A stretch of 64,000 nucleotides of DNA, from positions 1 to 64,000 of IMG/VR virus record IMGVR_UViG_3300046533_000294; one strand, written 5' to 3'. This document shows, one piece after another, positions 38,644-54,122 of the stretch. Both the position numbers and the translations under genes were made by a program. The notes under the pieces are model-generated. The model did no database searches. It saw only the letters and a program-made list of their open reading frames with translations, and had not been told where the DNA came from. Numbering within the stretch: position 1 is the stretch's first letter; each line of letters starts with the position of its first letter. The DNA is from a virus.

Positions 38644-41600
38644 CTACGCATCGGGGTCAATCACCCACATCTTGCTTGCCTTGACCTCGCGCGCAGCTCT
38701 GAATCCGCGCTTCACGCCCTGGACTACTACAACGTCCTTGTTCAGGCGCAGGCCCCACAGAGCCTTTCGGAAACCCGGATACTTGTAGCGGTCTACACGT
38801 ACCGACACTAGCTCCGTGCCGTCGTACCCGGCCATGATCATCCACTCGTTAAGATCAGGCCGGTCGATCGTCTCTGGGTCAACTTCGACTCCACGGGCCT
38901 TGTTGATTTCCCAGATGTCACGAAGGTTCCTTTGGACTATGACCCCTATCCACGTAACCTCCGTGTCCCGCCCGCGCTCGTACGGCACTTCCAGCGCGGT
39001 ATGGGTCGGCTCCGGTACGCCCAAGTTGGGCAGTTCGGTCTTGACCTTCTGGATCAAATTGTCCAGGGTGTAGATTCCGAATACGTCCGGTTGGCTGACC
39101 CAATCTTGTATCATGGCCGCTGTCTTCGGCCCGAATCCTGATATGCGCTCGATCTCGCCCCACTCGGTGAGGCTCATGGAGTCCCGTCCCTCGATCAGCG
39201 CAGCTGCCTTCTTCTCGCCGATGCCGGGGATCTGGAGCAGCCCACCATGGAGCGTCCGAGTATGGTTGTTGTACGTCCAGGTTAGCTCCGTCTGGTCGAA
39301 GCGTGGAGCCTCCACTAGGAAGCCGTGCCTGACCACATCTCGGAGCGCGACCGTCTCGGGGTCAATCTTGGCCTTGGAGACAGCCGAGGCTTTCGTGTTC
39401 CCGCGAGAGCCGGACGAGTTAGCCGACGATCGCGCTGATACGCCTCTCAGGAGCCACTTGTACCAGACCCCTTGGTGGTGCGCTTTGAAGTGCCCGTCCC
39501 ACCAGGCGATCGTTCCGTAGGAGATTGTGTGGGCGGCGTTGAAGGCGTAGGAGCCTGCGGTGATGCAGTCTCCCCAGATTGCTTTCGCGACCCCCTCAGA
39601 GATTTCAGGTACGTCCATACGTTCATGTGCTGTACTCGCTCCTTCCCAGAATCGTTCCCATTGTCGGTTAAACTCCTGGTCGCCGAGTTTCTTGCTGATG
39701 ATGCGACGGATGTGCGCAGCGTGTGTCCAGTCGAAGTTGCCGATTTCGCGCACGATGCGCAGGATCTGCTCCTGGTAGATTATCTGGAAGTAGGTGCCGG
39801 CCGTGATCGCCGCCAGCGCAGGATGCGAAACCGTCGGCTTGATGATGCCTCGCTTGATGTCGATGTAGCTCTGGGCCGATCCATTATGGAGAGGCCCTGG
39901 TCGAGCAAGTGCTGTAATGTCGCAAACCTCTCGGAAAGTGTCAGGGTGAAGGGCTCCGTTGATGGATCGCACTGCTCGCCCCTCGAACTGGAAGATCCCC
40001 GTGACGTCGTTCTCTTTGAATAGCGCAATGACTTCATCGTCCTCCGTCGGTATGTTGTAGAGATAGCTGACCGGCTCTCCTATGTCCCGACAGCAGCCTG
40101 CCAGACGATCGAGCGCGTTCAAGCGCAGGTAGTCTAGTTTGAGCAGACCCAGATACTCGGCGTCGTACTTATCAATACCAACGACCTTTCTGACTCGATC
40201 CTTGACGACTCGGGTGATGACGGAGCACACATCGGTAATGGGGCCGTTCGACACAACCACACCAGCAGCGTGGACTCCGAACCCTTTGGCATTGCCCTCC
40301 AATCTGGTTGCCGTCGCCAGGTTCGGAAAATCCGTGAGAACCTTCGAGGCTTGTTCGAACTGCTCAAAAGTATCCTCGATGGTCGCCGAGGCGCGAAGAT
40401 CACCGCTACTTCGTTCGATGAGGACATCTTTCACCTTCTCAACTTCGTAGATTGGGATACCATAGACGCGCGCCGTGTCGTCGAGCGCCAGTCTGGACTT
40501 GTACATCGTAAAGGTACCAACATCGCTGACACAGTCGCGACCGTAGCGGTAGATGAGGTAGTCCACAACTTCATGACGTCTCTCTGCCTCGAAGTCCACG
40601 TCGATGTCAGGTAGATCCTGCCGGGAGATGTCGATGAACCTTTCAAACACAAGATGGTCAAAGAGCATTGGATTGACCTCAGTGATGCGGAGTATCCAAC
40701 ACGCCAGTGAGGCGGCGGCAGATCCCCGAGCCGGGCCAACCGCAATTCCTTTGTCTTTCGCCCAGCGTAGAGAGTCGCTGACAATAAGAAAGTAGTCAAC
40801 AAAGTCCTTCTCCTCGATGATTCCCATCTCATAGCGCAGCCTTTCCGCGTACCGCTCGCGCTCGGGACGAGGCAGCTTGTGGCACTCGCGCTCTCGCCAT
40901 CCCTGCCTCAGCCACTCGCGCCAGGTAGCTATCGAGTCCTTGGTTGGAAACCTTACCATCGGCAGCTTCGGCAGCTCGACCTGACACCGCTGCGCTATCT
41001 GCTCCGTGTTGAGGATGGCGTCGATTGCTTGCTTGCGAGGCACACCCGTAGCTACGAGTTTGCGCAGGATCGTGTTGTCGTTAGGAGCCACGCAGAGATC
41101 GGCGTTGTAGCCCCAGCCACGGATCTGCTCCTCCAGCGTCTGCTGCTTGCCCGGCCGGACGTTGTGAAGGATCTGTTGTAGCTCCTTCTCGGTCGGCACG
41201 GTGTAGTGGCAGTCGAGCGTTACAACGAGCGGGATGTCTGTCTCGCGGGAGATGCGAGCTAGAGCTTCATTAGCCAGGCACGTTTCCTTGAGTTCAGGAA
41301 ATGCCTGAATCTCGATGTAATACGAGTCTCCGAAGGTGGATTGAAACTTACGAGCCAGGCTTCTAGCTCTCCCGTAGGAAGCATCCGCAACATCAATGCC
41401 TTTCCCTCCCATGAGGCTAGTGAAGAGAAGCGAACTTTGGCATCCACTAAGTACAATGAGTCCGCGTTTCTTAGCGGATAGCATCTGTCCAGAAACAGTT
41501 GGGTTGTGATAGAACCCTTCGGCATTGGCCTCTGAGACAAGGCGTAGGAGGTTTCGATACCCCTCCTGCGTCTCAGCCAAGACCGTGAGATGGTTCTTAC

Positions 41601-42015
41601 TTTGCTTCCTGTTTTCATCATCTATGGGCCCGCAGTAGAACTCGCACCCGAAGATGGACTGGATCCCCTCCTTACGCGCAGCTTGCTCAAACTTCGCATG
41701 ACTGAAAACATTTCCGTGCTCTGTGAGGGCGAGAGAGCCCATACCAAGCTCATTCGCCCTGCGCACGTGCGCCTCGGGCAGCGCATATCCGTCAAGGAAG
41801 GAATAAGTAGAGTGGTGATGAAGGCTTCGGAACCGCATGTCTCGCACGCGAACAGGCACGCGAGCTGTCCTTTTCTCCTTCCGAACCAATGCTGGTTGTT
41901 CGCCATTGGAACATTCCTCCTTGTGTCGATCGCGTCCGCTGAACGCGCTGATCCCCGAGTCGCTGAGCGACTTCTTGAAATCTCTCCTGATGACCCCTGT
42001 CTTACGCTTCGCCAT
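38644..42015 (-). CDS. dnaE: DNA polymerase III alpha-like (C-family) replicative polymerase
   Basis: A 1123-residue C-family polymerase. The PHP domain opens at about 62 with FRSLHHHSTYSFLDG. The catalytic Asp pair lies in LPDIDVDFE at 469-476, after GPARGSAAASLACW. The third acidic region is DAEYLGLLKLDYLRLNALD. A C-terminal helix-hairpin-helix is in LLQIPGIGEKKAAALIEGR. The first 58 residues are an extra basic leader. GGGGAGGATTC precedes the ATG, which overlaps the upstream gene by 14 bases. No separate proofreading or clamp-loader gene is visible here, so PHP exonuclease activity or host factors may be used. Confidence 0.93.
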   Translation of the reverse strand: MAKRKTGVIRRDFKKSLSDSGISAFSGRDRHKEECSNGEQPALVRKEKRTARVPVRVRDMRFRSLHHHSTYSFLDGYALPEAHVRRANELGMGSLALTEHGNVFSHAKFEQAARKEGIQSIFGCEFYCGPIDDENRKQSKNHLTVLAETQEGYRNLLRLVSEANAEGFYHNPTVSGQMLSAKKRGLIVLSGCQSSLLFTSLMGGKGIDVADASYGRARSLARKFQSTFGDSYYIEIQAFPELKETCLANEALARISRETDIPLVVTLDCHYTVPTEKELQQILHNVRPGKQQTLEEQIRGWGYNADLCVAPNDNTILRKLVATGVPRKQAIDAILNTEQIAQRCQVELPKLPMVRFPTKDSIATWREWLRQGWRERECHKLPRPERERYAERLRYEMGIIEEKDFVDYFLIVSDSLRWAKDKGIAVGPARGSAAASLACWILRITEVNPMLFDHLVFERFIDISRQDLPDIDVDFEAERRHEVVDYLIYRYGRDCVSDVGTFTMYKSRLALDDTARVYGIPIYEVEKVKDVLIERSSGDLRASATIEDTFEQFEQASKVLTDFPNLATATRLEGNAKGFGVHAAGVVVSNGPITDVCSVITRVVKDRVRKVVGIDKYDAEYLGLLKLDYLRLNALDRLAGCCRDIGEPVSYLYNIPTEDDEVIALFKENDVTGIFQFEGRAVRSINGALHPDTFREVCDITALARPGPLHNGSAQSYIDIKRGIIKPTVSHPALAAITAGTYFQIIYQEQILRIVREIGNFDWTHAAHIRRIISKKLGDQEFNRQWERFWEGASTAHERMDVPEISEGVAKAIWGDCITAGSYAFNAAHTISYGTIAWWDGHFKAHHQGVWYKWLLRGVSARSSANSSGSRGNTKASAVSKAKIDPETVALRDVVRHGFLVEAPRFDQTELTWTYNNHTRTLHGGLLQIPGIGEKKAAALIEGRDSMSLTEWGEIERISGFGPKTAAMIQDWVSQPDVFGIYTLDNLIQKVKTELPNLGVPEPTHTALEVPYERGRDTEVTWIGVIVQRNLRDIWEINKARGVEVDPETIDRPDLNEWMIMAGYDGTELVSVRVDRYKYPGFRKALWGLRLNKDVVVVQGVKRGFRAAREVKASKMWVIDPDA

Positions 42016-45581: not shown

Positions 45582-45850
45582 ACCAGCTCCCTTGCTTGAT
45601 GTCTCCCCGCGATAAGTCCGACCAGGAAGAAGTGCATGAACAGCGTGTTGATTGCGGGCTCGATCTTCGGATCCATCGTCTTCCAGGCTGGGTACTCCCG
45701 CTTGACGTGACCCACCCGACGCTGGAGCAGATTGTCGAACGCCTCGCGCTCGACTTCCAGAGTCGCGAGCTGTCGCCCGTAGTCCGGCGCACCGGCGTAC
45801 GCCACCTGGAGCACCGTCTCTGCTCGCGCTAGGGATTCCGCGTTGATCAT
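45578..45850 (-). CDS. Hypothetical helical protein
   Basis: A 90-residue helical protein (MINAESLARAETVLQVAYAG). ATG overlaps the primase-helicase stop by four bases, with AGAGG upstream. Unknown function; the tight coupling suggests a helper of replication. Confidence 0.55.
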   Translation of the reverse strand: MINAESLARAETVLQVAYAGAPDYGRQLATLEVEREAFDNLLQRRVGHVKREYPAWKTMDPKIEPAINTLFMHFFLVGLIAGRHQARELV

Positions 45851-48618
45851 TTGACCTCTCTTAGAATCACGTGCATTGTCGGCTCCACCCGGATGTCGCC
45901 GCCGTCCTTGCGCACCATCCGCGCGCCCCACAGTTTGTTTATCTTCGCGTTGGCCTCCGATCGTTCGATGTTCAGTATCTCCTCCAGATCCTGCCTCCTG
46001 AAAGTAGAGTTGGAACGGAGGAACTTGGCTAGGTCGCGGTTCTCTAGCAGGTACTTGCGCATCATCGTACGGTTGTTCTCTGCCTCGCGCCGATCCTCGA
46101 AGATCTCATCAGAGCGGTCGCGGTAGCCGAACGTCGGCATCGCATAGAGATGATGGAGGAATGCCACGGCGTCGTGGACGTGCTCCGGCTTAACAATTAC
46201 CTTTTCGCAGGCGTCGTCCGTGCTGAACGTCCTAGCTGCGAGCGCGGTAGAGATGCGAGCAATCTTCTCGCGGATGTCGGCTGCTTGTACGAGGGGAGGA
46301 TCTTCGATGTAAGCCTTGCCCACGATCGTCGCTGCTGCCATTGCTGCTTTCTCGGCAGGTGAAGTCCAGACAATTTGATCGGGCCTCCTCGTCCAGCACC
46401 ATAGCAGTAGCTTGTGGCATAGACTAGCCGTGAATCGGTTCTCACTTGGCTCGAACCGAACGTTGTACTGCTCGACCGGAACGTCGTGCATCGTCACGGC
46501 CATCGCCATGTCGAAGCGGGCTATGTCTTCCATCGCGCCGATCAGCGGGCGTAGCGCGTCTACCCCGTACGTGAACTGGCCCATGTTTCCTCCATTGCGG
46601 GGGTTCGCTAACCAAATCATGCGCGTCCGGGCGTGCGTCGCCTCCTGCTGGATCTTGGAGATGCGCACTACTCCGTCGTGGCGCAGGTCGGACATGTGGC
46701 CGATGTCCTCGTACGAGAGCGCGGAGATCTCATCGATCACAACCGCTCGACGGTCGTTGAGCGGAATGACACCCCATGTGACAACCCATTCCTTTCCGCC
46801 AAGCTGCTGCAGACCGCCAACAAGTCCTGCATAAGACGCAGATTCTCCACCGACGATCTCACCTGCACCATAGTGACGGAGGAGCTGCCTTGCCGCTTCG
46901 GATTTACCAGTTCGAGTGTCACCGTATACACAACATTGGAGCCATCCGCGTCGGATGAGTTTGCCGTTAAACTTGAACGAAAGAACAGAATGTAGCGTGA
47001 GATCAAAGATAGCATGCATCTCCCAGCGTCCGGTAATGCGGGTCACGTGCTCACCCATCGCCTCCGCGATCTGTCTCAGCTTCTTGACGGGCCGGGATTT
47101 GGTGGTTGTTTGGAATCGACGTAGTTCGCGAGCTGATGTCCTATCCAGCTCAAAATTGTCCAGAGAGGTTGATACGGGAGCGAGTTCCCAAGAGAGAAAC
47201 TCGTTTCGTTGATCTCTTGGGTTCGGGTGAAGCGCCCCAAGCGCAACGACAGTGTTATTGGGAAGTGTATCGTGTCGGCCAGTACTAATGATGCGTAGAG
47301 TTTTGTACGATCCTGCTTCCTGACTGTCAGAGTGATCGAGGGACGGGCGGGCATATAGAACCTCCACTGATTGGTATTCCTTCGGTTCGATGATGAGCTT
47401 CCCGCACTTGACCGCCCCGTATTCCTTCCTGATCGAATCGAATAGCTGCTGCTGGTTCGCATCAATCAGGGCCAGTATCGTCGGACTGTCGCCGCCTATC
47501 GTGACTTCGGCCGCGCCAGTGGCCTTCATGGGGCAGAATTGGCACTTGACTCCAGCGTCACGCGTACACGTTAGCTGGGCAGTGCGTGGCACGGTGTAAC
47601 CCGGCTCCTTCTTCCCCTTGATCGTCACAATTAGGTTGACAGGCTTCGCGATGTTCTTCGCGTCACTACTGTCCAGCACCGAGATAGTCTCTGGCCCTGA
47701 TTCATGCGACTCCTTTGCTCGCCAGGGCTGGGCGTCCCTGAGCAGCTGCTCGAAGTCCTCACGATCGTGCTCCATCCAGAAGTCAGACAGATCCTTGCCG
47801 TGTTTCTCAGTCAGCTCGTACGGTAGAACAACAACACGGACGTCACAAACGCGAGAGAGAGCACGAGCCACGACCCGGTTAGCATCCACGCCAGTATCAT
47901 CGCGGTCATGGCAGAGGTAGACCAACTTGTTCCTGAAAGCCTCACTCCACTCTTGCTTCCAGATCTTGGCCGATCCGGTCTTGGTGATAGCTGGATAGCC
48001 AGCTTGGATCGTCGCGAGCGCATCCCATTCTCCTTCGCAGACTACGAGTGTGTCATGAACGAGCTGGTCGGCTGGATAGAGACGTGGCGTGTTGTGCCCA
48101 CTCATGCCCCAGATCTTCGTGTCGCCTTTCGGACGCGGCGTGTATTGACGGATGTTCCATAGCTCTCCGTCCGGCCCGTAGACAGGGATCGTGTATACGT
48201 GCTTGTCTTTGTCCCACCCGATCCTGAACCGCTTGAGCGTGTCGGATGTGAGCCCGCGACGCCCTACGATCTCGTCCAGCGCAGTTTCCTCATCCATCAG
48301 GTTCTGTGCCCAGGCATCAGCCATGGCAGGCGACAACGCCTCCTTTGCGCGGCGCGGTCGCCCACCATTCCTGCGACTGCGGACTGCGGCTTGACTGTTC
48401 GGCGCGATCCATCGAGGCTTCTGCTTGATGAGATCCGTCACCGTACAGCCGCCGCAGCCCGCTTGGCAGAAGAATTGAGCAGAGTACACGTTGATGGAGG
48501 CAGAGCGAACCGTGTCCTCATGCAGAGGGCACAGTAAGTACCACTCGCCATCTTCGCGTGGCGCATCCGTGACGAAGTAGTCGCGGAGTTGCCTTATCTG
48601 CCCGTTCTTAATCGGCAT
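45847..48618 (-). CDS. DnaG-type primase fused to an MCM-like AAA+ helicase
   Basis: A 923-residue replication protein. Residues 1-60 hold a CHC2 zinc finger (C30, H33, C51, C55). A TOPRIM domain follows with E195 in VVCEGEWDAL and the DxD at 238-240 in CHDRDDTG. About 305-530 is an OB-like region with four Cys (351, 359, 362, 405), like the MCM N-terminal zinc domain. About 550-720 is an AAA+ core of MCM style: Walker A GDTRTGKS (566-573), GGESASYAGLVGG, Walker B VVIDE (626-630), sensor-1 WLANPRNG, and arginine-bearing DIARFDMAMAV. This gives primer synthesis and unwinding in one chain. Primase-helicase fusions with RecA-like helicase are common in phages; an MCM-like module in a tailed bacterial phage is not. 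Confidence 0.85.
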   Translation of the reverse strand: MPIKNGQIRQLRDYFVTDAPREDGEWYLLCPLHEDTVRSASINVYSAQFFCQAGCGGCTVTDLIKQKPRWIAPNSQAAVRSRRNGGRPRRAKEALSPAMADAWAQNLMDEETALDEIVGRRGLTSDTLKRFRIGWDKDKHVYTIPVYGPDGELWNIRQYTPRPKGDTKIWGMSGHNTPRLYPADQLVHDTLVVCEGEWDALATIQAGYPAITKTGSAKIWKQEWSEAFRNKLVYLCHDRDDTGVDANRVVARALSRVCDVRVVVLPYELTEKHGKDLSDFWMEHDREDFEQLLRDAQPWRAKESHESGPETISVLDSSDAKNIAKPVNLIVTIKGKKEPGYTVPRTAQLTCTRDAGVKCQFCPMKATGAAEVTIGGDSPTILALIDANQQQLFDSIRKEYGAVKCGKLIIEPKEYQSVEVLYARPSLDHSDSQEAGSYKTLRIISTGRHDTLPNNTVVALGALHPNPRDQRNEFLSWELAPVSTSLDNFELDRTSARELRRFQTTTKSRPVKKLRQIAEAMGEHVTRITGRWEMHAIFDLTLHSVLSFKFNGKLIRRGWLQCCVYGDTRTGKSEAARQLLRHYGAGEIVGGESASYAGLVGGLQQLGGKEWVVTWGVIPLNDRRAVVIDEISALSYEDIGHMSDLRHDGVVRISKIQQEATHARTRMIWLANPRNGGNMGQFTYGVDALRPLIGAMEDIARFDMAMAVTMHDVPVEQYNVRFEPSENRFTASLCHKLLLWCWTRRPDQIVWTSPAEKAAMAAATIVGKAYIEDPPLVQAADIREKIARISTALAARTFSTDDACEKVIVKPEHVHDAVAFLHHLYAMPTFGYRDRSDEIFEDRREAENNRTMMRKYLLENRDLAKFLRSNSTFRRQDLEEILNIERSEANAKINKLWGARMVRKDGGDIRVEPTMHVILREVK

Positions 48619-48622
48619 GTTG

Positions 48623-49417
48623 CTAGAAAGGCTCCTCGTTGTCGTCGGCGCGGAGCGCGGCGATGAGGTTTGCCTTCGTGGACTTTGCTCCCTTCTTGAG
48701 CGAGAGATCTCGCTTGTTGAACTCCTCTTTCAGGTCACCGAGCGACCAGTCATCGTAGTCGTCGCCCTCGGCATCCACGATCGCAGCACGGATGTCGTCG
48801 TCCGACATTTTGGTGGTGACCTTGACCTCTAGCTCGTTGTCCTTGATGTACTTCTTGAGTTCAGAGCGATCGAGTTCAGCGAGAGGGTCATCTGCTTCTT
48901 CCTCTTCTGGCTCCTCGTCCTCCTCCTCTTCTGCTTCTTCGTCTTCTTCAACCTCCTCCTCCTCGTCAACCTCGTCCTCGTCTTCTGCTTCCTCCTCTTC
49001 ATCGGCTTCATCGGCGTCGGCGTCCTCGCCCTCTTCAACCTCCTTGGCGGCGAGCCAAGTCTTCAGACGAGCCTTGTACGCGCCGTCGTACTCGTCCTTC
49101 GTGACCTGTACACGGCACTCCTTGCCGATGAGCTTCTTGGGATCGAGCGAGCCCTTCGCGGGCATCCCGAGCGCGTCCGTGAACTCACGCAGCTTCCATG
49201 CCGTTGCGTCGTACAGACCGATGTATGAGTGGAGCGGAGCAAACTTGTCACCGACCGAGACGGTGATATGGAAGTCACCCTTGCCTTCGATCTTGGTGCC
49301 GTCGGACTTCTCTGTCCGATGCTCGGCAGTCATGATCTTGGCCTTGTAGATTTTCGGCGGTGCTTGTTCGCCGGCACCCGACTCGACATCGCTCACGTCA
49401 TATCTAATCGCTGGCAA
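48623..49417 (-). CDS. Probable single-stranded DNA-binding protein with acidic linker and two HeH/SAP-like repeats
   Basis: A 264-residue protein starting at TTG 49417, where AGGAGG lies seven bases upstream; the start overlaps the upstream ATPase gene by 14 bases. Residues about 20-125 are beta-rich (DFHITVSVGDKFAPLHSYIG) and resemble OB-type ssDNA-binding proteins. About 126-185 are nearly all Glu/Asp. The end holds two 35-residue helix-loop-helix repeats (LDRSELKKYIKDNELEVKV, WSLGDLKEEFNKRDLSLKK), often found at ends of phage DNA-binding proteins. Located between a Sak4-like ATPase and the primase-helicase, it likely coats ssDNA. Confidence 0.6.
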   Translation of the reverse strand: MPAIRYDVSDVESGAGEQAPPKIYKAKIMTAEHRTEKSDGTKIEGKGDFHITVSVGDKFAPLHSYIGLYDATAWKLREFTDALGMPAKGSLDPKKLIGKECRVQVTKDEYDGAYKARLKTWLAAKEVEEGEDADADEADEEEEAEDEDEVDEEEEVEEDEEAEEEEDEEPEEEEADDPLAELDRSELKKYIKDNELEVKVTTKMSDDDIRAAIVDAEGDDYDDWSLGDLKEEFNKRDLSLKKGAKSTKANLIAALRADDNEEPF

Positions 49418-50204
49418 CTCTATTCCTCCTGCGTCTGGTAGTGGTGGGCGCGATTCCACGCGCCTGCTTGATTGCTGCTTCTAGCTTCGGCACAGTCAGG
49501 TCGATCACCTGACCATTCGGAAATGCATGGAACTGATCCTTCCCGTAGAAGGATGTGTTGCCTTTGAATCGAGTCTTCGTATATTGTTCCCCCTTCCTCG
49601 TCTCGCTGTCGTGAACTGTCTGGTAGCCGACCATCTGCATGTAGCCCGAGATCCGCTGGGGCATACCTTTGCCCTGGATCCACGGCATCATGCGTTCGAT
49701 GTATTGCGGCCCCATTTCTTCGTCTGGTTCACCTTCCTGGACTTCCATCCAGAACTGGTGGGCTGTGATGCCAAGATGGAACAGATCGCAACCCATCATG
49801 AATCTGACCCACTCCGCGATCCGTCCCATGTTGACGCCGTAGTCGCCCTTGTCCCACCAAGCGTTAGCGCGGTTAGGGTTGCGTCGCTTGGCTACGTCAA
49901 AGATGTCATCAAGGCCGACATCCTGCCAACACGAGATCGAGTCGAGCCAGATCCACTCGTATGAATTGCCCTCGTGTCTGGCCCACGCTAGGACTTCATT
50001 CATCCCAGACCAATCCTTAACCAACCAATGGTCAGCACCGCAGTTCTTGATCGCGTCTAGGTGCTCGACGTAGGGGTGAACGATGAGCGTGTTCGATCCA
50101 CCGCTCCCAGCCAGCGTCGTCTTGCGCGATCCAGGATCACCATAGACCAGTATGCGATAGTGCTTGCTGGGCTTGATTGATTGGATGTCAGCTGGCTTAG
50201 CCAT
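49404..50204 (-). CDS. Sak4-like RecA-fold ATPase
   Basis: A 266-residue protein of the phage AAA_24/Sak4 group, single-domain RecA relatives that promote strand annealing with ssDNA-binding protein. Walker A is GDPGSRKTT at 22-30, with Arg where Gly usually precedes the Lys. Walker B is the YEWIWLDSISC strand. The tail is basic (TTTRRRRNRVASD). It is coupled to the ssDNA-binding gene downstream, which supports recombination function. Ribosome site GAGGAGGTGAG. Confidence 0.75.
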   Translation of the reverse strand: MAKPADIQSIKPSKHYRILVYGDPGSRKTTLAGSGGSNTLIVHPYVEHLDAIKNCGADHWLVKDWSGMNEVLAWARHEGNSYEWIWLDSISCWQDVGLDDIFDVAKRRNPNRANAWWDKGDYGVNMGRIAEWVRFMMGCDLFHLGITAHQFWMEVQEGEPDEEMGPQYIERMMPWIQGKGMPQRISGYMQMVGYQTVHDSETRKGEQYTKTRFKGNTSFYGKDQFHAFPNGQVIDLTVPKLEAAIKQARGIAPTTTRRRRNRVASD

Positions 50205-50691: not shown

Positions 50692-50891
50692 CACGATGCC
50701 TGCTGGACTAGCTCGTAGCCGCCGACGCAGAGAACAAATACGAGCGAGAGTAAACCGATCACTATCAGCGCGATCCCTGCCCACTCTGCCGCGTACAGGA
50801 TCAGCGAGCCGGGCCGGTCGCGCATATCGTCGAGCAGGCTCGCGCGCTTCTGGGTGGGAATGATCCCAGTCTTAGCCTCGCTGCTGCTCAC
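50691..50891 (-). CDS. Small membrane protein
   Basis: A 66-residue protein. Residues 1-28 are polar and 30-60 form one or two hydrophobic segments (LILYAAEWAGIALIVIGLLS, then LVFVLCVGG). ATG overlaps the nuclease stop by four bases. Role unknown; it might be membrane anchoring or superinfection exclusion. Confidence 0.55.
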   Translation of the reverse strand: MSSSEAKTGIIPTQKRASLLDDMRDRPGSLILYAAEWAGIALIVIGLLSLVFVLCVGGYELVQQAS

Positions 50892-51889
50892 TTCTGCTCC
50901 GAGGCAATGACTTCGTGCTCCGCGTATGGATCCCAGGTCTGGGTCGTTGCTTCCATCAGTTCCTCCCAGTCGGACTTGATCTCGTGGGCCTCGCAGATGT
51001 CGAACATACTACATCCCTGACAAGTCCACTTCGTGGCGTTCTTGTAGATGAGAATGCTGTTCTCGCGGAACGTGGAGGCGCTCTGCTTCGCGTCGTGGAT
51101 CTGCTGCCACTGCTTCTGAACGCGATCGTAGACAGACGCGCTGTCTTTGTCGTCGCGGAATACCGGCTTGCGATCGAAATAGGGTGCTGGCTGCTTAGCT
51201 GAGATCGAGCCGTCCTTGTTGAGGTAGTTGCCACCATTATCCCTCGGGCGCTGGTCGGGTGGCGCTTTGCGCAAGAAGTTGAAGAGCAGACCAGAGAGCT
51301 GCGTACTGCGAGGGATCAGCTTCGCGCGATAGATGGCCTCACGTCCGAATGTCCAATACGATCCCGCCTGCTCGTCCAGGAGCAGCCAACGCGGATGACG
51401 CTCGATCCCTTTCGTGGTCTTGTGATCCGGCATCCAGACTTTCTTGGTCGGCAGATGTCGCCAGACCCCATCTACGACGCCGGTGTAGTAGAACGGGGTT
51501 GCGTGATTGATGCGGATGCGAAACGGGTACTCGGTCGCGAGTACCTCCCATTCATCGTCTGCTCCGTAGTGATCGACGTAGTTTGTGAGCATTGCCGGGC
51601 CTAGCTCGGCAGCGTTAGCCCACACTTCGTCATCTTCGATTTTGAAGCCAAACTCACCAGCGACCTTCGCGTCTGCCTCGTACAGGCGCTCGAAGGTCAA
51701 TGCTGGGTTCGGCCCGCGCTTCTTGCCCGGCTTGTAGTAGGCAGCCAGCGCGCCGTGTATGAGCGTCCCGAAGCGCAATGGCGGTCGGTCGATGTTGGGT
51801 CTACGTGCTAGAAAGTAGTTCTGGTACCACAGGAATCGACAACGCTCAAAGGTGGTGCGTTCTGATGTTCTGAGTTGCGGAATGGGCAA
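50888..51889 (-). CDS. Cas4/RecB-type PD-(D/E)XK exonuclease with iron-sulphur cluster
   Basis: A 333-residue nuclease. Core motifs are GTLIHGALAAYY, YYTGVVDGVW, VWMPDHKTTKG (Asp-x-Lys) and LDEQAGSYWTF (Gln..Tyr). Four Cys at 17, 290, 293 and 299 give the C-xn-C-x2-C-x5-C pattern that holds a 4Fe-4S cluster in Cas4 and AddB. Such enzymes resect DNA ends to feed recombination, here probably with the Sak4-like ATPase. No cas1/cas2 genes or CRISPR array are nearby. First gene after the 52 kb intergenic region. Confidence 0.85.
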   Translation of the reverse strand: MPIPQLRTSERTTFERCRFLWYQNYFLARRPNIDRPPLRFGTLIHGALAAYYKPGKKRGPNPALTFERLYEADAKVAGEFGFKIEDDEVWANAAELGPAMLTNYVDHYGADDEWEVLATEYPFRIRINHATPFYYTGVVDGVWRHLPTKKVWMPDHKTTKGIERHPRWLLLDEQAGSYWTFGREAIYRAKLIPRSTQLSGLLFNFLRKAPPDQRPRDNGGNYLNKDGSISAKQPAPYFDRKPVFRDDKDSASVYDRVQKQWQQIHDAKQSASTFRENSILIYKNATKWTCQGCSMFDICEAHEIKSDWEELMEATTQTWDPYAEHEVIASEQK

Positions 51890-52238: not shown

Positions 52239-54122
52239 TTACTTCTTTCCGAGGTCTTTCATCGCTCTACGATGTACATCCAAGATGATCTCATTCAGCT
52301 TGCTTTTCGTTGCCGTCGTATCCTGGATGTATTGTTCGACGGTATTCCGGCTGCGGTAGTAGTAGCAGGTCACCTGATGGATCCGCGAGATCCTGTGAAT
52401 CCGGTCTTCCAATTGCTCCTGGTCGTCCGGGTTCCAAGTCTCGTCCAAGATGTGGCAAGTATCGGCTCGATCGAGCGTGATTGACACGCCGCCGGCAGTC
52501 GTGGTCATACAGACGACTCTCGGGCCGGTTCCTTTCTGGAACTCACGCTGGATTCGTACACGATCCTTGCCCTTGGTATCGCCTGTGATCAACGCTACTG
52601 GGATGCCCTGCTTCTCAAGCCAGTTAGCCACCATGTTGATCATTTCCTTGAACTGGCTAGCGATAATCGTTTGAGCATCACCTTCGGGATCATCCGCGTC
52701 GATACCAGTTTCGTTGAGCTTCTGGAGCAGCTGTGGCAGCTTCCCAGAATCCTCAGTTGGGATCAACTTCTGCTTGATCTCGATCCCCTCACCTAGGCAG
52801 TCTTCACATCCATGCAACATGCCTTCGTTTCTCTTGTGCTTGCATGGCACTTCGTACTCATGAATGAGACAGACTGCGTTGGCGAACTGCTTTAGTCGCA
52901 GATACTCCGTCAGGATGTTGGTGGCAGACAGATGTTGTTTCTCGATGCGGATCTCAGCAGCTCGCGCAAATTCACGATACTGAGCTGCTTGCTTCGGGGA
53001 CATATCACACATGACTTCCACCGGCTGCTTTGGAGGCAGCTGGCTTGCGACTTCCGACTTGAGCCGACGCACGATATACGGCGCGTGATAGGCGTAGAAC
53101 GCCTCTTCAATGCCGGGCTTCAGGCCCATGATGATCTTGTGATTCCTGAAACCGCTCTCGATTACCAGCCACTGCTCAGCCCACTTCCACTTTGAGCTGA
53201 ATCTGTCGGGGTCGATGAAGTTCAGCGCCGACCAGAGTCTGATTGGCTTACCACCCATAGGCGTACCGCTCATGGGGATTCGCTTCTGCTCTTTCCGTAC
53301 CATGGCCTTGGCGAGTTTCGAGAACTGGGATGAGCTTTCGCAGAGCCCCGTTTTGTGGTACTCATCGATGGTGATACTCGTCCAGTTCGCTTCAAGGAAC
53401 ACGTCTCGCCACGACTTCGAGCGTACCATGCTCGCAGTTGTGACAAAGGCATATCCACCATGGACTGCTACAGCTTCCATGATCTGCTCAGGAAGCGCGT
53501 TGCGCTCCTTCGCAGGTGTCTCGCTGTAGAGCGTGAACACCGGGATCTCGGTGAACCGTTCTAGCTCATATTGCCAGACAGTCTCCAGAGCAGTTTTCGG
53601 TGCTATGATCAGATGTTCGCCTTGTTCGATCTGGGCTTCATGAATCGCACCGATGACTTCGATGGTCTTCCCGAGGCCCATCTGGTTCAGGTTGCCGGCG
53701 TTAGTCGCCGCCAGAAACGCGATGTCTGCTCGCTGATACGGCCGATCTGGCCAGTCCTCAGTTCCGTCGCCTGCAATAAGTGCTACAAGCTCTGGCACCG
53801 AGTCTGGACAATAGGCCAGCTCTGCATCTTCTGCGAGCGCGAGGCTCGACAGATTCCGCTCACGTTGAACCTCGTCCCGGCCCCACTGGAGCAGCTTCGG
53901 GCCCAGCGTGAGAGTGTTCTGGAACAGTAGACGCAGGATGCGGCCAGTCGCGAGATCGAGTGGCACTGACCAAGCCGGGCCACCTTTCTCAGGTGGAACG
54001 AACCGGCTGTTTGGCACCTTGAACTTGATGGTGTCCTTGGTACGGTGGTCGTACGAGAACGTCAACCAGATCCTCTTGCCATCCGGAGAGAGTTCTGCAA
54101 CGACACCAGTGGTTTTACCCAC
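52239..54122 (-). CDS. SNF2-type DEAD/H helicase
   Basis: A 627-residue superfamily 2 ATPase. Motif I is QMGLGKT (149-153), motif II is DEYH (253-256), motif III is SGTPMGG, the C-terminal lobe has TTTAGGVSITLDRAD, and motif VI is DRIHRISRIHQV. A Cys-rich insert (CKHKRNEGMLHGCEDC) near 440 may bind zinc. SNF2 proteins move along duplex DNA to remodel or displace proteins; phage forms act in replication or recombination. It starts at GTG with GAAGGAGGGTG upstream. Confidence 0.9.
   Translation of the reverse strand: MGKTTGVVAELSPDGKRIWLTFSYDHRTKDTIKFKVPNSRFVPPEKGGPAWSVPLDLATGRILRLLFQNTLTLGPKLLQWGRDEVQRERNLSSLALAEDAELAYCPDSVPELVALIAGDGTEDWPDRPYQRADIAFLAATNAGNLNQMGLGKTIEVIGAIHEAQIEQGEHLIIAPKTALETVWQYELERFTEIPVFTLYSETPAKERNALPEQIMEAVAVHGGYAFVTTASMVRSKSWRDVFLEANWTSITIDEYHKTGLCESSSQFSKLAKAMVRKEQKRIPMSGTPMGGKPIRLWSALNFIDPDRFSSKWKWAEQWLVIESGFRNHKIIMGLKPGIEEAFYAYHAPYIVRRLKSEVASQLPPKQPVEVMCDMSPKQAAQYREFARAAEIRIEKQHLSATNILTEYLRLKQFANAVCLIHEYEVPCKHKRNEGMLHGCEDCLGEGIEIKQKLIPTEDSGKLPQLLQKLNETGIDADDPEGDAQTIIASQFKEMINMVANWLEKQGIPVALITGDTKGKDRVRIQREFQKGTGPRVVCMTTTAGGVSITLDRADTCHILDETWNPDDQEQLEDRIHRISRIHQVTCYYYRSRNTVEQYIQDTTATKSKLNEIILDVHRRAMKDLGKK

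Follow-up and report, generated by a model that had tools for sequence, protein, structure and literature searches.

A DnaG-type primase fused to an MCM-type motor: a widespread and under-annotated form of viral primase-helicase

MCM is the helicase engine for chromosome copying in archaea and eukaryotes. Fusions of a primase with a helicase are already known in two forms, MCM joined to an AEP primase and DnaG joined to an SF4 helicase, the latter in T7. For BcMCM of a Bacillus cereus prophage, an AEP-MCM fusion, 3'->5' helicase, primase and DNA polymerase activities have been reported (PMC4538821). The presence of MCM genes in bacterial mobile elements was noted in 2018, and DnaG fusions go unmentioned in the passages considered here (PMC5862659). 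No description of a DnaG-MCM protein was found in the literature searched, the coverage of which was incomplete, and no priority is claimed.

The window analyzed here, the whole stretch of 64,000 nucleotides, belongs to a tailed phage. Genes for terminase, portal, maturation protease, scaffold, major head protein and tape measure are located on the plus strand, and the replication genes, among them one for a DnaE-type polymerase, on the minus strand. The sequence-only reading of this DNA had placed a primase fused to an MCM-like helicase at 45847-48618, and these coordinates were correct: the gene (45847..48618) is a single uninterrupted ORF of 923 aa on the minus strand, starting with ATG and with the stop codon included. 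All features within the gene described below are on the same strand.

The N-terminal half carried the hallmarks of a bacterial DnaG-type primase, as had been proposed. The CHC2-type zinc finger region (residues 1-70; 48409..48618) has the pattern C30-x2-H33 ... C51-x3-C55, in which C30 and C51 were invariant and H33 nearly invariant among 52 aligned relatives; the model Zn_ribbon_DnaG matched 33 of these. The DnaG RNA-polymerase domain including TOPRIM (residues 97-300; 47719..48330) was supported by Pfam and profile matches. Toprim_2 scored 4.5e-7 at residues 192-280, above the curated cut-off, and a profile of 8 relatives matched Aquifex DnaG (2au3, 2.3e-23) and the T7 gp4 primase (1nui, 1.8e-8) in the PDB. 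The TOPRIM metal-site residues are E195, D199, D238 and D240, and D199, D238, D240 and the G196-E197 pair were invariant in the 52 aligned relatives. A CHC2 zinc finger together with TOPRIM acidic metal ligands, as in DnaG-type primases, is thus confirmed. No AEP model in Pfam scored on the window protein, CHC2/TOPRIM being found there instead.

The C-terminal half contains an AAA+ motor (residues 505-720; 46459..47106), assigned to the MCM type by Pfam, phmmer and hhalign. All motor motifs quoted in the sequence-only reading were recovered: GDTRTGKS at residues 566-573, GGESASYAGL at 590-599, WLANPRNG at 669-676 and DIARFDMA at 698-705. Conservation was evaluated in 94 representatives, 86 of them being used for the DnaG-MCM form, and a structural model was built with AlphaFold from the 52 aligned sequences (pLDDT 87.6).

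The catalytic residues were found intact. G566 and K572 of Walker A (46900..46923), E630 of the Walker B strand VVIDE (residues 625-630; 46729..46746), N672 of sensor 1 (46591..46614) and R701 of the arginine-finger motif EDIARFD (46510..46530), which corresponds to the MCM SRF position, were present in 94/94 representatives, and Walker B D629 in 80/94. The helix-2 insert (residues 586-615; 46774..46863), with an MCM-like GESAS.AGL...W...WG pattern, had G586, G598 and G616 in all 94; in the model it forms a strand-helix-strand element (strands 586-590, 601-605 and 611-615; helix 596-599). The pre-sensor-1 beta-hairpin (residues 650-662; 46633..46671) was modelled as two strands (650-654 and 658-662), with K655 kept in 78 of the 86 DnaG-MCM representatives. 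In hhalign, both the helix-2 insert and EDIARFD were aligned with their archaeal MCM counterparts, the arginine finger being SRFD in the latter. Both the helix-2 insert and the pre-sensor-1 hairpin of MCM are thus present in the predicted fold, and the arginine finger in the SRF motif and the sensor 1 Asn are those of MCM as well.

The predicted AAA+ lid helices (residues 731-826; 46141..46428) deviated in one respect. The column that usually holds the MCM sensor-2 arginine, ahead of the "RLSEA" helix of the lid, is D/N (D781), according to an hhalign alignment that may be shifted at this point. K785, found in 94/94 representatives, and the nearly invariant R783 and R788 are close to this column, so nucleotide sensing either differs or may have moved to K785 or R788. 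The C-terminal winged-helix-like region (residues 850-923; 45850..46071) consists of helices and a two-strand wing in the AlphaFold model and was reached by few of the MCM alignments obtained with VIA (7pmk_5, to residue 914).

The genomic neighborhood was that of a replication region. The gene directly upstream (48623..49459, minus strand) encodes an acidic-tailed protein of phrog_3724 with unassigned function; phage ssDNA-binding proteins often have a very long acidic tail, and this protein is possibly one of them. Beyond it, likewise on the minus strand, are genes for a Sak4-like ATPase (49404..50204; phrog_124, 1.5e-18), a PD-(D/E)XK exonuclease (50888..51889; phrog_1218, 7e-68) and an SNF2-type helicase (52239..54122; Pfam SNF2-rel_dom, 3.3e-32). 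A DnaE-type DNA polymerase III alpha of 1123 aa (38644..42015, minus strand; polc superfamily, 1.3e-172, above cut-off) lies 3.8 kb from the primase-MCM gene on its other side. The order SNF2, exonuclease, Sak4, small gene, primase/MCM and polymerase constitutes a conserved gene block.

The suggested DnaE-like partner was thus present in the window and also in the actinophages, but this pairing is not fixed: the window gene is paired with DnaE, whereas Bacillus-type relatives (L010, L011) have PolA instead. A DnaE or PolA replicase was found in every annotated cultured phage whose neighborhood was read. The number of DnaE-type polymerase genes also varied, with one in the window and two in phages Karate and Wollypog (L008, L009), an HNH endonuclease gene being located between the two in Wollypog. 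In the Bacillus-type relatives, QueC/D/E and FolE (queuosine-type) genes adjoin the primase-MCM gene.

DnaB_C was detected neither in the record of the window nor in seven related records, while controls scored in 14/14 genomes. The seven records include five complete cultured genomes, those of four DnaG-MCM phages and of the AEP-MCM phage vB_BboS-125. Nothing in the window's record therefore suggests a RecA-fold SF4/DnaB motor of the T7 gp4 kind. Among the window ORFs scanned, the primase-MCM gene was the only one for a primase.

Taken together, the gene at 45847-48618 very probably encodes the phage's own primase and replicative helicase. In this protein, DnaG occupies the N-terminal position that is taken by AEP in BcMCM-type proteins. 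By analogy with known MCMs and DnaG primases, six copies would form a ring around one strand, probably the leading strand, and this ring would travel 3'->5', as MCMs do, led by the N-tier. The N-tier would hold the DnaG domains at the exit of the excluded lagging strand, and their RNA primers would be passed to the phage polymerase, DnaE in this case. Such a mode of action is the most likely reading, given the 3'->5' unwinding and priming reported for BcMCM.

The strongest alternative is that the MCM part acts as an origin-recognition or remodelling ATPase and that unwinding is left to host DnaB. Some phages do borrow host DnaB, the lack of a phage DnaB is compatible with such use, and the D/N at the classical sensor-2 arginine column would fit a motor with another task. 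However, Walker A, Walker B, sensor 1 and the arginine finger have been kept, as has the hairpin lysine in most cases, and in T7 gp4 and BcMCM, too, the helicase is fused directly to a primase. A loader resembling DnaC or lambda P was not found when ORFs of the replication region were scanned, a set covering part of the small ORFs. This alternative is accordingly considered unlikely.

A role in recombination or repair rather than in replication would be in line with the adjoining Sak4, exonuclease and SNF2 helicase genes. It is harder to reconcile with a protein that is the only primase among the window ORFs scanned, in a record devoid of DnaB, and with the replicase genes that accompany it in the annotated cultured phages read. 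A primase-helicase devoted to recombination or repair is thus regarded as improbable, distinctly more so than a remodelling ATPase, and a replicative primase-helicase remains the preferred reading.

Whether the motor is in fact of the MCM family was approached by several comparisons. Pfam MCM (PF00493) scored 8.1e-7 at residues 527-676, above the curated cut-off. The same model scored above cut-off in 14/14 control genomes, which included E. coli and other bacteria without a replicative MCM, so the Pfam hit is insufficient alone for calling phage MCMs and was rejected as sole evidence. When the single protein was compared with the PDB by phmmer, the motor region matched MCM chains of many organisms (best 2.9e-6), apart from one meaningless non-MCM match at E=1. 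The profile of 8 relatives retrieved DnaG for residues 1-300, MCM for the motor, and no other chains. A tblastn search of 72,556 plasmids with the motor (E<=10) yielded two plasmid-borne relatives, an AEP fusion of Bacillus velezensis and a CHC2 fusion of Paenibacillus larvae, together with six archaeal MCM genes and no others.

A motor from another AAA+ clade (ComM/Mg-chelatase, Lon/ClpX, RuvB or SF3) that just resembles MCM would be in line with the PF00493 scores in bacteria and with hhalign probabilities of 83% for YifB and 67% for ClpX. In each comparison, however, the MCM matches were the better ones and spanned more columns. The MCM part of the 52 relatives was matched by hhalign to four archaeal MCMs with 98.6% probability (E 1e-15, 405 columns). 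With single control sequences, hhalign ranked the MCMs over all of YifB, ClpX, Lon and RuvB, and in hmmsearch MCMs reached 2e-13 to 3e-4, while ClpX gave 370 and YifB, Lon and RuvB no match. At E 0.01, MCM scored in 48 of the 52 relatives and no other AAA+ family in any. SF3 families were absent from the Pfam matches at E<=1 and from the 52 relatives at 0.01, and no SF3 chain was among the PDB matches listed for phmmer or the 8-relative profile.

Comparisons of the predicted structure gave the same picture. The best 50 Foldseek matches in the PDB were all MCM (top 9e-23), and VIA-align superimposed 455 residues over 304-839 on the MCM/DNA complex 6mii (Z 30.3, rmsd 5.8); all matches listed by VIA-align were MCM, although the lack of other families in that list is no proof by itself. 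The match also takes in the N-tier, which is absent from the other clades. As judged from these searches, MCM is the AAA+ family nearest to the motor, and the proposal of an MCM motor withstood comparison with the SF3 and Lon/RuvB types by profile searches as well as by AlphaFold modelling. Membership in another clade is refuted as far as sequence and predicted fold permit, and its probability is very low.

The MCM N-tier (residues 306-490; 47149..47703) was recognized as an OB-like beta domain with a four-Cys zinc-ribbon, the model having strands at 327-351, 408-425, 441-446, 456-465 and 472-481. The four cysteines, C351, C359, C362 and C405 (47404..47568), were invariant in 52/52 aligned relatives and kept in 81-85 of the 86 DnaG-MCM representatives. 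In the VIA comparison with MCMs, the aligned part starts at residue 304. Since 505-839 comprises just 335 residues, at least 120 of the 455 aligned residues belong to the N-tier, which supports the earlier remark on an OB-like, four-Cys region. Pfam MCM_OB and MCM_lid did not score on the window protein, and the assignment of N-tier and lid therefore rests on structure prediction and cysteine spacing. Folding of the N-tier on its own without an alignment gave a pLDDT of 29.6 and was discarded. The predicted fold is consistent with an OB domain of the MCM type carrying putative zinc-binding cysteines.

The same fusion was found in cultured phages of Microbacterium (Krampusviruses), Arthrobacter (Wollypog), Bacillus (BSP7/BSTP12) and Weizmannia (Youna2), with 29-34% identity and the same gene order. 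A family profile identified relatives in 248 IMG/VR stretches, and the sampled loci comprised 138 distinct DnaG-MCM and 22 AEP-MCM sequences. Among 84,980 bacterial and archaeal species genomes, there were three matches, all on metagenome-assembled contigs, so the family appears to be phage-specific. The dN/dS of the DnaG-MCM gene was 0.11-0.15, which shows purifying selection. Retention of the fusion in cultured phages and many environmental contigs at such dN/dS values is more than chance. The combination regarded as unusual in the sequence-only reading, a DnaG-type primase with an MCM motor, was thus confirmed; it is, however, not the oddity of one phage but a widespread and conserved architecture.

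The record of 129,757 bp consists of two colinear related phage genomes placed head to tail (the window, 1-64000, and G000:C1 66435-128470; 72-89% DNA identity, offset ~65 kb), and the primase-MCM gene is present twice, in copies 86% identical. This is likely an assembly join, or possibly a pair of tandem prophages. Such a join might raise the suspicion of an assembly or frameshift artefact in the gene, which is already refuted and has practically no probability left, as both copies carry the same uninterrupted fusion, shared by complete cultured phages from four host genera as well as by many unrelated contigs.

Two variants of the gene were also encountered. In two metagenome-assembled loci (L165, 7917-11570; L166, 50-3156) it is split where the N-tier adjoins the AAA+ motor. 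The halves are separated by short ORFs that overlap, and in L165 one of these ORFs encodes a small cysteine-containing protein. A very divergent CHC2 + MCM protein occurs in L178 (4399-7191) and in the Paenibacillus phages vB_PlaP_API480 and SV21; most of the four cysteines are missing from it, and its Walker A is altered to GEPRSMKS.

In the Bacillus phage vB_BboS-125 and in plasmid p3 of B. velezensis, Pfam DNA_primase_S precedes the same MCM module; AEP models scored on L177 and L182. The module of the window protein was aligned with that of p3 from N-tier to C-terminus (hhalign E 6e-79, 608 columns). A pattern scan with the AEP-MCM pair gave few relatives, as the patterns fell in the primase, and was replaced by a search with the MCM module. 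A tree of 61 modules, with archaeal MCMs as the root, placed the AEP forms inside the DnaG forms. L211, a DnaG-MCM protein of ~993 aa in a plus frame, was grouped inside the AEP clade, a position with full SH-aLRT support, its module being sister to the Bacillus AEP-MCM modules, and it is a candidate for a primase swap. Forcing AEP into one clade was rejected with an AU p of 0.037, a value that is suggestive, not strong. BcMCM would belong in the same clade of MCM modules.

The tree suggests that the primase was exchanged at least twice. The DnaG-MCM fusion shows that the type of primase and the type of helicase can be separated in evolution. It could equally well be right or wrong that a single phage MCM chassis has taken unrelated, interchangeable primases, DnaG and AEP having replaced each other at least twice, and that in DnaG-MCM a bacterial primase is carried on the front tier by a motor of 3'->5' polarity. 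We know of no DnaG-helicase pair with 3'->5' polarity, all having the opposite one. On CMG, it is at the N-tier side that Pol alpha-primase and the lagging strand meet, as is envisaged for the primase of DnaG-MCM.

DnaG-MCM is thus a real, widespread and under-annotated form of viral primase-helicase. The proteins of the Krampusviruses, Wollypogvirus, BSP7/BSTP12 and Youna2 have the same fusion and are labelled merely as primase or primase/helicase, that of Youna2 even as "DNA primase small subunit". Their annotation can be corrected, since many phage "DNA primase" proteins carry an MCM helicase. The fusion is moreover available in laboratory-growable phages of Microbacterium, Arthrobacter and Bacillus subtilis, and allows a direct test of the ability of DnaG to prime for a leading-strand helicase that moves 3'->5'.

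When compared with archaeal and eukaryotic MCMs, the window protein shares the N-tier, the AAA+ domain with helix-2 insert, the pre-sensor-1 hairpin, the [S/A]RFD arginine finger and the lid, at ~15-20% identity. It differs in its Walker A (GDTRTGKS versus GDPGxAKS), in its cysteine spacing (C-x7-C-x2-C-x42-C versus paired CxxC), in the sensor-2 arginine column, which is not conserved, and in the DnaG fused ahead. The AEP-MCM fusions (BcMCM, vB_BboS-125, p3) likewise have the primase N-terminal to MCM, but their primase is AEP (DNA_primase_S), whereas that of the window protein is DnaG CHC2/TOPRIM. T7 gp4 also has a CHC2/TOPRIM primase N-terminal to the helicase in a single chain; in contrast, its motor is a RecA-fold SF4 enzyme moving 5'->3', while the AAA+ MCM motor of the window protein is expected to move 3'->5'. 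A bacterial primase and an archaeo-eukaryotic replicative helicase are here joined in one chain.
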